Positions 9,723 to 12,389 of a stretch of DNA of 28,054 nt are shown piece by piece (position 1 is the first letter of the stretch; each line of letters begins with the position of its first letter). Position numbers and translations under genes: made by a program. Source of the stretch: a virus. The stretch spans positions 1 to 28,054 of the IMG/VR virus record IMGVR_UViG_3300027687_000056; one strand, given 5' to 3'. The notes beneath the pieces are model-generated. The model saw only the letters and a program-made list of their open reading frames with translations, searched no databases and had not been told where the DNA came from.

Positions 9723-9751
9723 AGTATATACTAAAGAGGTGTAGAAGTCAA
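9723..9751 (-). promoter_or_regulatory. Sigma70-type promoter upstream of gene 45
   Basis: On the minus strand TTGACT (9751-9746), a 17-nt spacer and TATACT (9728-9723) are found. The predicted start near 9716 leaves a leader of about 35 nt containing AAAGGAG. It would drive the 45-44-62-regA block independently of the DUF262-HNH gene upstream. Confidence 0.65.
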
Positions 9752-9768
9752 TGCTTATTGCTTTCAAC

Positions 9769-11310
9769 TTATACGATAACTCTTTTAGTTCTATTACCAT
9801 CGTTCATATTAGTTTTAGAATCAATGACTCTAGTATTTTCAGGTGTTCTATTACCACCTTTTGATACAGGAACAATCTCATCTATATGATAACCACTTTG
9901 TTGAGATAGTGGTATACCTTCCTCTGCTAGGATTTCTGCTCTAGTTCTTTCACCTTTTCTGGATCCTAATTTTGTAATAATTCCTAGTGATTCTAAAGCA
10001 GGTATTTGTTCTTCTAAATCTGCTTTTAAATATCTCAATCTAGCATAATCATTAAATTTATATTTAGAACCACCTTCACCTTTCATAGATACTTTTGATT
10101 GATGTTTCTGATCTGCATTATGTTTAGCAAAAGAGTAGTCGTGTAATTGATTTCTATTTTTACCGTTTGGTAAAACATAAGGAAAATTAGTTCCAGGACT
10201 TTTCAATCTAATGAGTTCAGCATCAAAAAACATCTTAACAAATAGTTCAGGATCACTAATTGAATACTCTACATCTGTTAACCAGATATTATTCTTTTGC
10301 ATTAAAAATGCTAATGTATAAAACAAATTATACAAAGATGATTTACTAAACTTTTTAAGGTCTGTTTCAGGATACAAAGCGCAACCGTCTGCCATTATTC
10401 TTAAAATCTTTTTAGTAAGTTGTCTTTCTGTTTCAGAAATATAAACTTTAGATTTATCTTTTGATTTTCTACTTGATTTTACAGGACCACATACTTGATC
10501 TAATATGTGTGTTTGATTTTCAAAATTATTATTATTAATCCAACACATCATTTCAGCAGCAAATAAAGTATCGCCTTTATTTTTTAAATCATATTCACTT
10601 GTCATTCCAGATATAAGTTGAAACATTGATTTAATATTAGTGTAGTGTAAACAAGTATCAATTAAAAATAAATTATTCTTATTATAGTTTAATATTCTTT
10701 TTTCGTGTACTGTCATTGCAACCATACTATTAGATGTAATAAAGACTTCAACTAATTCAGTTAAGTCACCTGTATTATAAACTACACAAATAATTGGTGT
10801 ATTAAATAAATATGTTTGTATTTCTTCAGGTAATTCTGTAAATTTACCTTTGATAGAAATAAGACCTGGTTGGTCATCTATTTGTAAAGAAATTTCTGTT
10901 AAAGGATTAAATTCTGTTTTGCCTTCAAAGTAATCTACTATTTCTTGTATTCTATGTTGACCATCTAATACTAAATATTGTTTTCCTTTAGTAAGTAAAT
11001 TTTTAAAATACTCTAAATTTTCTTCTAAAAATTCTTTTTCAAATTGATCCTTCTGATTTTTTATATCATTATCTAATTGTTCAACAATTTCTAAAATATT
11101 TGCTAATTGGAATGTATCTTTAAAAGAAGCGCCGTTAAATAAAGTAGTTAAGTAAGAATTTCTTTTTCCTTCAAACCATTTATTTAAGAGTCTTTGTAAT
11201 CTTTCTCGGTCGTAATGTAATAGATTATTTTTGTGTAGGTCGTAAATCCATCTTACTTTTTTAGATAATGCTTCTGAATGGACTTTTGCTGTTGTGTTTG
11301 TTATACTCAT
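9769..11310 (-). CDS. DUF262-like (DGQHR) protein with C-terminal HNH nuclease domain
   Basis: The product has 513 residues from the ATG at 11310, preceded by AGAAAGAG at suitable spacing. A longer reading from TTG at 11337 has less support. The N-terminal half looks like DUF262/GmrS: YLVLDGQHRIQEIVDYFEGK (DGQHR at 116-120), then TPIICVVYNTGDLTELVEVF and a SNSMVAMTVHEKR turn like the family's N-x-x-x-x-L-x-x-x-E. The last 40 residues form an HNH unit, HIDEIVPVSKGGNRTPENTR, with later Asn residues. This layout recalls DUF262-nuclease proteins of type IV restriction. In a phage it could attack host or rival DNA, or act as a homing-type or mobile passenger. It has its own promoter and splits the Hsp20 and clamp genes. 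Confidence 0.8.
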   Translation of the reverse strand: MSITNTTAKVHSEALSKKVRWIYDLHKNNLLHYDRERLQRLLNKWFEGKRNSYLTTLFNGASFKDTFQLANILEIVEQLDNDIKNQKDQFEKEFLEENLEYFKNLLTKGKQYLVLDGQHRIQEIVDYFEGKTEFNPLTEISLQIDDQPGLISIKGKFTELPEEIQTYLFNTPIICVVYNTGDLTELVEVFITSNSMVAMTVHEKRILNYNKNNLFLIDTCLHYTNIKSMFQLISGMTSEYDLKNKGDTLFAAEMMCWINNNNFENQTHILDQVCGPVKSSRKSKDKSKVYISETERQLTKKILRIMADGCALYPETDLKKFSKSSLYNLFYTLAFLMQKNNIWLTDVEYSISDPELFVKMFFDAELIRLKSPGTNFPYVLPNGKNRNQLHDYSFAKHNADQKHQSKVSMKGEGGSKYKFNDYARLRYLKADLEEQIPALESLGIITKLGSRKGERTRAEILAEEGIPLSQQSGYHIDEIVPVSKGGNRTPENTRVIDSKTNMNDGNRTKRVIV

Positions 11311-11378
11311 TATATACTCTTTCTGTTGCCTTAGCAACTTGATTAATTATAGAATCAGACTTATCTAATTCTAATATC

Positions 11379-11433: not shown

Positions 11434-11889
11434 CTACTTAATTTTAATAGTTTTAGCCTTCTTGTGATCTGGAATAATTCTCTCCATAGATACACTTAAT
11501 AGACCATCTTTCAGTTCAGCACCGTTGATTTCAACATCTTCAGCGATTGTGAAAGACTTTGTAAACATTCTTTTGGCTATACCTTTGTGTAGCATACCCT
11601 CGTTTTCTTCAACCTCTTTAACATCATTGTCTTTAATAGACTTGATAGTTAAGACGCTGTTTTCAAACGATACATCTACATCTTTTTTACCGTATCCAGC
11701 AAGTGCAACTTGTATATCATAGGTATTTGTACCTGTCTTTACAATATTGTATGGTGGATAGTTTTGAACATTAGCATTTAAGGTATCGTTTTGATGGTCA
11801 AACATTGATTCAAAATGTGTGAACATATCATCAAATCCTACTGATAATGGTCTTAATTGGTTAAAGATTGAAATTGCTTTATTGGTCAT
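11434..11889 (-). CDS. Small heat-shock protein Hsp20 (IbpA-like)
   Basis: The protein has 151 residues from the ATG at 11889, chosen because an AAAGGAG sits 5 nt upstream; an upstream TTG in frame lacks this. The N-terminal LRPLSVGFDDMFTHFESM is the IbpA-type leader. The alpha-crystallin domain runs from about YPPYNIVKTG to the end, with GIAKRMFTKSFTIAEDVE and the hallmark A-x-L-x-x-G-L-L-S-V (AELKDGLLSV). The tail PDHKKAKTIKIK contains the I-x-I type oligomerisation motif. Such ATP-independent holdases are common in T4-like marine phages and are thought to help virion or replication protein folding. It has a near-perfect promoter at 11946-11975. Confidence 0.95.
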   Translation of the reverse strand: MTNKAISIFNQLRPLSVGFDDMFTHFESMFDHQNDTLNANVQNYPPYNIVKTGTNTYDIQVALAGYGKKDVDVSFENSVLTIKSIKDNDVKEVEENEGMLHKGIAKRMFTKSFTIAEDVEINGAELKDGLLSVSMERIIPDHKKAKTIKIK

Positions 11890-11945
11890 TTTATCTCCTT
11901 TGTTAAGCAAGTTAATTTATAGAACCCATTATGGCGTTCTACTGT

Positions 11946-11975: not shown

Positions 11976-11980
11976 CCCTA

Positions 11981-12038
11981 CTTATAGAAATTCACTAGGC
12001 TGAGGATCCCTACCAGTTCCCTAGTGAATATCTATAAG
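11981..12038. repeat. Long imperfect inverted repeat (18-bp stem plus inner helix)
   Basis: CTTATAGA (11981-11988) pairs with TCTATAAG (12031-12038). After one A/A mismatch, ATTCACTAGG (11990-11999) pairs with CCTAGTGAAT (12020-12029). The 20-nt centre can fold further: CTG with CAG and AGG with CCT around a 3-nt loop, with small bulges. It ends 5 bp from the -35 box of the hsp20 promoter. No T-tract follows on the minus strand, so it is not a standard terminator. Confidence 0.8.
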
Positions 12039-12171
12039 TGCTACTTTATTTTTATCGCTGTAAAGTAGCAAATCAGCGTTTTGCGACACCGACTAATTTC
12101 TTGGTCGGGTTTCTGCGTGAGGACTTACGAATAGCCCCAACATTATATATTTATCTTCACCAACGCAAAAC
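11981..12171 (-). ncRNA. Candidate structured RNA with H-type pseudoknot, between bS21 and hsp20
   Basis: This gene-free stretch is dense in pairings. Read on the minus strand, an 8-bp helix (12164-12171 with 12078-12085, GTTTTGCG/CGCAAAAC) closes a 78-nt domain. Inside, CCCGAC (12104-12109) can pair either with GTTGGG upstream (12136-12141) or with GTCGG downstream (12089-12093), which are exclusive choices. Abutting the closing helix is a classic H-type pseudoknot. Stem 1 is CGCTG/CAGCG (12074-12078 with 12056-12060), stem 2 is the 9-bp GCTACTTTA/TAAAGTAGC (12061-12069 with 12040-12048), and the loop crossing stem 1 is A-rich (12049-12055). The long hairpin 11981-12038 follows. No known class is recognised. 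It could be a 3' UTR element of the bS21 mRNA, a regulatory leader or a free ncRNA. A TATAAT lies at 12142-12147. Confidence 0.45.
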
Positions 12172-12179
12172 TTTAAAAC

Positions 12180-12389
12180 TTAATAACCTCTAGTTCTCTC
12201 TAATTTCTTCTTATTTTTCTTAACATTAGCAATGTTTTCCTTCTTTTTTCTTCTCTTTTTTTCAGAAGGTTTTTCAAAAGATTGTCTTTCTCTTAATTCT
12301 TTTACAAGACCTTCTTTCATAACCTTACGCTTTAACACACGCATAGCTTGTTCAACATTTCCGTTTCTTACATCTACTGTTATACTCAA
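12180..12389 (-). CDS. rpsU: Ribosomal protein bS21
   Basis: This 69-residue protein matches bS21 (E. coli 71 aa) across its length. It has an N-terminal beta strand, [10 protein letters not shown], the [20 protein letters not shown] helix, [19 protein letters not shown] (compare the bacterial R-R-x-x-x-E-K-P block), and a Lys-rich tail ending RTRGY. bS21 sits on the 30S platform beside the anti-Shine-Dalgarno and helps mRNA recruitment. Phage-encoded bS21 is known from marine phages and may replace host copies. The start is TTG (12389) with a full AGGAGG 8 nt upstream; no in-frame ATG occurs near the N-terminus, so the TTG start is well supported. A structured non-coding stretch follows it. 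Confidence 0.95.

Follow-up and report, generated by a model that had tools for sequence, protein, structure and literature searches.

The window analysed here is the whole 28,054-nucleotide stretch of IMG/VR record IMGVR_UViG_3300027687_000056. On its minus strand, between the genes for the ribosomal protein bS21 and for hsp20, we recognised the following elements (window coordinates, listed in 5' to 3' order of that strand):

12180-12389, minus strand: gene of ribosomal protein S21 (bS21), directly upstream of the RNA described below (open reading frame; tblastn to the bS21 of Mosig and HTVC008M)
12162-12170, minus strand: 5' strand of helix P0, TTTTGCGTT, pairing with 12111-12119
12148-12155, minus strand: T4-type late-promoter octamer GATAAATA, with a predicted start at ~12141-12142, the base of P1
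12120-12137, minus strand: P1, the 5'-terminal hairpin (GGGC 12137-12134, loop 12133-12125, G12124, bulge 12123, CCU 12122-12120)
12111-12119, minus strand: 3' strand of helix P0, CACGCAGAA
12089-12108, minus strand: hairpin P2, CCGAC 12108-12104 with GTCGG 12093-12089 (taken from the fold; the stems vary in homologues)
12083-12090, minus strand: linker GGUGUCGC of the short-form RNAs
12074-12078, minus strand: pseudoknot stem S1, 5' strand CGCTG
12070-12073, minus strand: pseudoknot loop 1, ATTT (U-run conserved in homologues)
12061-12069, minus strand: pseudoknot stem S2, 5' strand GCTACTTTA
12056-12060, minus strand: S1, 3' strand CAGCG
12049-12055, minus strand: pseudoknot loop 3, ATAAAAA, crossing S1 (A-rich in homologues too)
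12040-12048, minus strand: S2, 3' strand TAAAGTAGC, the 3' end of the conserved RNA
11980-12039, minus strand: optional hairpin right after the pseudoknot (arms 12039-12020 and 11999-11980, 20-nt loop)

A sequence-only reading of this DNA had placed an H-type pseudoknot at 12040-12078, and its coordinates proved exact when read off the sequence. From 12078 to 12040 the minus strand runs CGCTG-ATTT-GCTACTTTA-CAGCG-ATAAAAA-TAAAGTAGC, which gives the topology that had been described (S1 of 5 bp, S2 of 9 bp, an interstem gap of 0, a first loop of 4 nt and an A-rich third loop of 7 nt). Scored with a simple nearest-neighbour model for H-type pseudoknots made for this analysis, it reached -18.1, the top value among 1,399 sliding windows of the minus strand (runner-up -13.0), and none of 200 dinucleotide shuffles of the pseudoknot region attained its score. 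The nested fold of the 211-nt intergenic region, with the pseudoknot left out, had a z of -4.5.

An IMG/VR scan by hsp20 returned 80 loci, many of them ordered as bS21, intergenic stretch and hsp20, and the same architecture was recognisable by eye in most of these intergenic stretches. With DNA-pattern scans added, 85 unique RNAs were gathered, all sequences being from related phages; these IMG/VR sets are partly pattern-selected, whereas those obtained by scanning with the bS21 protein only (80 best loci; 38 unique loci) are not. Among cultured relatives the RNA is present, as a single copy each, in the Pelagibacter phages Mosig EXVC030M (L082) and HTVC008M (L083, a minimal form), and the P1 pattern was absent from the Melnitz, Kolga, P-TIM40 and HTVC115P genomes searched. 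The cyanophage hsp20 loci (Syn33, P-TIM40) have no bS21 beside hsp20, and a lone P1-motif match in Syn33, far from hsp20, was taken as chance. Scanning bacterial genomes with the P1...GGTGTCGC pattern gave 21 scattered, chance-like matches (none in SAR11), and a blastn search of annotated phages with the intergenic region produced a 21-nt chance match only.

Compensatory changes in both stems, which the sequence-only reading had named as the check on its pseudoknot, are present among the homologues. When 46 sequences were aligned with MAFFT without constraints, 92.8% of the S1 cells were paired and four of the five S1 pairs had changed on both sides; S2 scored lower there because one of its gaps had been misplaced between two subtypes. 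Across 37 distinct pseudoknots the paired fraction was 90.8% of cells for S1 and, after moving that one gap, 96.5% for S2, against 12-57% for slid partners, and base changes on both sides occurred at no fewer than 7 pair positions (four of the five S1 pairs included). The exchange can be followed within a single lineage, where L035 and L039, nearly the same in their P1-P2 region, differ in S1 (ACGGAG/CUCCGU vs ACGCAG/CUGCGU) and at the outer end of S2 (GGC/GCU vs GCC/GGC). On the bS21 gene tree, pair-type changes numbered at least 4, 4, 9 and 6 for four S1 pairs and 8, 8 and 6 for three S2 pairs, hence the covariation counts do not stem from one inherited event; whole-module recombination could lie behind some of the pair changes. 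On these comparative grounds the predicted H-type pseudoknot is confirmed as real.

The pseudoknot had been taken as the unit; it appears instead to be the terminal (3') module of a larger late RNA, in which the late-promoter octamer is followed by the P1 hairpin, a variable middle (~20 to 330 nt) and the pseudoknot. Sequence conservation is strongest in P1, 45-60 nt upstream of the pseudoknot, and extends in most short forms to the linker GGUGUCGC, whose GUGUCGC is (nearly) invariant in 37 alignment rows and which is lacking in some other forms. The near-invariant letters of P1 read AGGC-NRYYCRUAAG-W-CCU, with a conserved loop YYCRUAA. In the 38 unique loci found by the bS21 protein alone and anchored on CRTAA only, GG, CRUAA and CC were kept in 38/38, and the C of GGC and the G following CRUAA in 37/38 each. 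Two likenesses of this hairpin were dropped: an anticodon-loop mimic (YUCRUAA), in which the positions needed to close a 7-nt loop are unpaired, and a match of UCGUAA to 16S rRNA, which as a 6-mer is at chance level.

Helix P0, at the foot of P1, covaries as well (five of its nine pairs changed on both sides), and P0 and P1 together were paired in 97.2% of cells vs 35-59% when slid. Since part of P0 is located before the predicted start, the helix is possible only in transcripts reading in from bS21, and such read-through transcripts therefore matter too. The 8-bp helix said to abut the pseudoknot, GTTTTGCG (12171-12164) with CGCAAAAC (12085-12078), stood only in part: the pairing is possible in the GTTTTGCG subgroup only, it would share C12078 with S1, and the conserved partner of its 5' strand is instead 12111-12119, that is, P0.

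What stays constant across the family is a 5'-terminal P1 and, in most forms, a pseudoknot immediately ahead of the next promoter. P2 is missing or substituted in the long forms, which carry extra predicted pseudoknots (Mosig, L073, L057, L253, L294, L296, L304, L341, L347, L349, L353); some have two or three predicted vs a shuffle average of 0.1-1.0, and the RNA of the window has one. Throughout, they keep P1 at the 5' and a pseudoknot at the 3' end, the latter with differing S1 stems (for instance GUGUU/AACAC vs GAGUU/AACUC and GGCU/AGCC). Totals from a relaxed-S1 automatic caller of terminal pseudoknots were excluded as evidence because it fires on 40 of 60 shuffled sequences. Many long forms share a domain, TTGGTCTTCGTAGC...GGGTGAGACCTACC, which in the L380 type stands at the end in place of the pseudoknot. 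This ~85-nt domain also stands alone in other phage contigs (L378, L396, L397, L409, L412, L416, L417), in three of them beside a Flavobacterium-1 RNA (RF02976), and its sharing may reflect domain exchange among phage noncoding RNAs. The hairpin at 11980-12039 has a 34-nt core, made up of its loop and inner arms, that does not vary across 53 IMG/VR stretches, in which the adjoining pseudoknots differ. Its outer arms covary. Where P1 falls within range, the hairpin lies 105-137 nt beyond it (in one case 233), and many relatives are without it. It may be a mobile module, or else the RNA may optionally end in it.

The octamer NATA[AT]ATA precedes the GGC of P1 in 85/85 unique RNAs, usually ending 8-12 nt before GGC, and in 79 of the 80 bS21-only loci (L308 was read by eye). 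The window holds GATAAATA three times on the minus strand and not once on the plus strand. Mosig has TATAAATA 27 times on one (coding) strand vs 3 on the other, and the octamer sits 19-25 nt before late structural genes (prohead protease, neck, tail fibre, gp48-type and gp8). T4 late promoters carry their octamer at -13 to -6, a geometry that places the predicted start at the base of P1. As in a T4-type late transcription unit, a NATAAATA-type octamer thus occupies -13 to -6 relative to a start that is itself predicted, and we infer transcription from the base of P1, late in infection.

The RNA itself lacks an open reading frame. A stop falls within 134 nt of the predicted start in 252 of the 255 reading frames, and the median longest ATG frame has 3 codons; two hypothetical proteins of Mosig (MT647606, 9619-9735 and 9748-9867) are annotated on top of the RNA and are probably spurious. 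The covariance models of Rfam 15 gave no match at gathering score in the window and none on the RNA of 15 relatives, the Mosig region had none at E<5, and the RNA of the window drew chance-level hits only, which bears out the earlier statement that the pseudoknot matches no recognised class. A tmRNA was rejected, as ARAGORN finds none and the ssrA of Mosig lies elsewhere (111467-111805), ~100 kb from the RNA.

The RNA is associated with bS21, not with hsp20. In the 80 best IMG/VR loci by bS21 protein scan it lies 27-105 nt downstream of bS21 in every case (the strict motif in 79, with L308 one letter off), and in most of them hsp20 follows within ~600 nt. In Mosig, L032, L041, L045, L050, L058, L339, L341 and L353, hsp20 is 1.0-1.9 kb off, behind another gene, and the RNA is kept. 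It is likewise kept in HTVC008M, where bS21 and the RNA are separated by a gene. In the L380/L390 types, 587-615 nt lie between bS21 and the shared domain of the RNA, and both octamer and P1 are intact. As it persists despite genes intervening on either side, the RNA behaves as its own unit, and the earlier suggestion that it might act alone is upheld as a possibility. The suggestion that hsp20 might be the read-out gene found no support: after the RNA, hsp20 has a promoter of its own (TTGACA/TATAAT or TATAAATA) as well as a ROSE-like leader, and many relatives have it 1-2 kb away.

The hsp20 leader (11884-11943, minus strand) has the look of a ROSE-type RNA thermometer, with a weak ROSE_3 match (E 0.006, below gathering). 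Its first hairpin covaries among relatives (AGAACGCC/GGGTTCT, ACAACGCC/GGGTTGT, GACGCC/GGGTC), and a conserved ACTTGCTT stands ahead of AGGAG. Between hsp20 and the sliding clamp, the open reading frame at 9769-11337 (minus strand) shows a DGQHR motif and an HNH-like C-terminus when read by eye.

We reason that a discrete late noncoding RNA gene lies just downstream of bS21 and that the pseudoknot forms its 3' module, a reading to which we give an even chance. The comparisons establish the predicted fold (P0, P1 and pseudoknot), gene-like conservation, the lack of an open frame and an octamer at a near-fixed distance before P1; the whole is best read as a new family of late phage noncoding RNA in SAR11-type phages, one that probably acts in trans. 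Late in infection, the phage late sigma factor would initiate at the base of P1, and the 5'-terminal hairpin, together with a coaxial H-type pseudoknot, or several, whose loops are A-rich, may make the RNA compact and nuclease-resistant. The conserved P1 loop (YYCRUAAG) could then be where the RNA, in trans, meets a protein or a second RNA; neither partner nor target was found. The pseudoknots would serve as structural modules at the end, a role that would account for their drift in sequence, size and number while pairing is kept. Transcripts reading in from bS21 could carry the RNA too, with P0 then forming below P1.

Two alternatives stay alive because no intrinsic terminator was identified after the pseudoknot and because P0 covaries. 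The late transcript may enter hsp20, and the RNA may be a structured leader only. On this account, which we regard as unlikely but worth serious attention, it is the 5' leader of a late mRNA for the downstream gene (often hsp20), in which P1 and the pseudoknot slow decay or hold a protein. The late octamer at the 5' end and the lack of an identified terminator before the gene speak for it, as do L058 and L253 (offsets +167 and +219 from P1), where a start codon falls ~15 nt or less past the last pseudoknot and is without a clear Shine-Dalgarno. A precedent exists in the T4 gene 32 leader, in which an H-type pseudoknot near the transcript's 5' end nucleates gp32, the protein making use of this 5'-terminal pseudoknot together with a 3' portion that is unstructured (PMC535899). 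That pseudoknot, however, is the gp32 operator just before the ribosome site, whereas the one described here lies in the bS21-hsp20 region with its own P1, and gene 32 is elsewhere (in Mosig the gene of the ssDNA-binding protein, 106744-107634, is far from the RNA). The leader account is further weakened by the promoter and leader that hsp20 has of its own, by a downstream gene that varies among relatives, and by the gene inserted in Mosig, which has a sigma-70-like promoter of its own ahead of it (read by eye).

Less probable still is that the element belongs to the 3'-UTR of bS21, where a read-through P0-P1-pseudoknot would set the mRNA 3' end or serve protein feedback, in the manner of the L17 downstream element. 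Its constant place downstream of bS21 in all 80 best loci fits, as does a covarying P0 that forms only if the RNA starts upstream of the late start, but the RNA has its own late promoter, and P1 and promoter persist where a gene separates them from bS21 (HTVC008M and the L380/L390 types). The L17 downstream element (RF01708), a proposed precedent, is likewise a structured RNA just after a ribosomal-protein gene (PMC2864571); it is known from Lactobacillales and Listeria, no late promoter is described for it, and its Rfam model was unmatched here.

ToxI antitoxins are repeats of one unit beside toxN. Neither trait was seen here (successive pseudoknots differ in sequence and are not tandem repeats of one unit, and no toxN-like gene was recognised beside the RNA, its neighbours being bS21 and hsp20), so we consider it very improbable that the pseudoknots are antitoxin-like decoys that mimic host ToxI and neutralise a nuclease toxin, even though H-type pseudoknots with an A-rich loop, sometimes several in a row, are shared with ToxI and such mimicry has a phage precedent in the pseudo-ToxI of PhiTE (PMC5449768). 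A metabolite-sensing riboswitch for hsp20 or bS21, an analogy drawn in the sequence-only reading from the H-type pseudoknot with its A-rich third loop, and one that could appeal to the glutamine riboswitches of such phages (PMC9004378; including RF01739 in L096, a contig of the same phage group, at 9724-9774), is largely refuted and hardly credible: stems and loops vary freely, and so does even the number of pseudoknots, a drift in keeping with a structural end module and hard to square with a ligand pocket; the strongly conserved letters lie outside the pseudoknot, in which no conserved preQ1/SAM-II-like aptamer letters were found (only the L1 U-run and A-rich L3 recur); no Rfam family matched; and the RNA stands after, not before, bS21, with a downstream gene that is not fixed.

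Set against known systems, the candidate late noncoding RNA has its closest structural analogue in STAXI (RF01728), which is pseudoknot-built, often with several in a row (PMC2864571), but enterobacterial and made of repeats of one pseudoknot; the RF01728 model matched neither the RNA of the window nor its relatives. The closest kind of phage RNA is GOLLD/ROOL, multi-pseudoknot RNAs with variable regions, of which GOLLD rises in phage lysis (PMC12286853); these are much larger (659 nt in a ROOL example, many GOLLD >800 nt) and lie near tRNA islands, whereas the RNA described here has ~100-380 nt and goes with bS21 and a late octamer, and their Rfam models were unmatched. The manA motif (RF01745) is a structured RNA of T4-like marine phages that is sometimes found upstream of ibpA (hsp20) (PMC2864571), and its covariance model left the window unmatched. 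Previous pelagiphage work has reported bS21 as core to the group, late promoters as not predictable, and no riboswitches by Riboswitch Scanner (PMC7029224), and the description of Melnitz has reported tmRNA and glutamine riboswitches, Mosig included (PMC9004378).

The OLE RNP contains bS21, which binds a Shine-Dalgarno/anti-Shine-Dalgarno-like duplex (PMC12054373), and OLE RNA resembles the RNA reported here as a structured noncoding RNA linked to bS21. It is ~600 nt long and found in Bacillota, its Rfam model was unmatched here, and the bS21 link here is one of gene adjacency. By analogy, we entertain as a speculative and rather improbable extension that phage bS21 and the RNA form an extraribosomal complex, in which the AGG/CCU duplex of P1 would mimic the Shine-Dalgarno/anti-Shine-Dalgarno helix bound by bS21; the AGG/CCU core is compatible with the idea and too short to count as evidence for it. 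If true, the complex would be the phage counterpart of the OLE-bS21 RNP, and the RNA would load, store or titrate phage bS21 late, helping to retune host ribosomes to phage messages.

In the phages of SAR11, whose hosts are among the most numerous cells on Earth, earlier annotation appears to have missed a conserved noncoding RNA gene. If expressed, it would be a late RNA amenable to study in cultured phages and their hosts (Mosig, HTVC008M), where one could ask directly if phage bS21 has an extraribosomal RNA partner.
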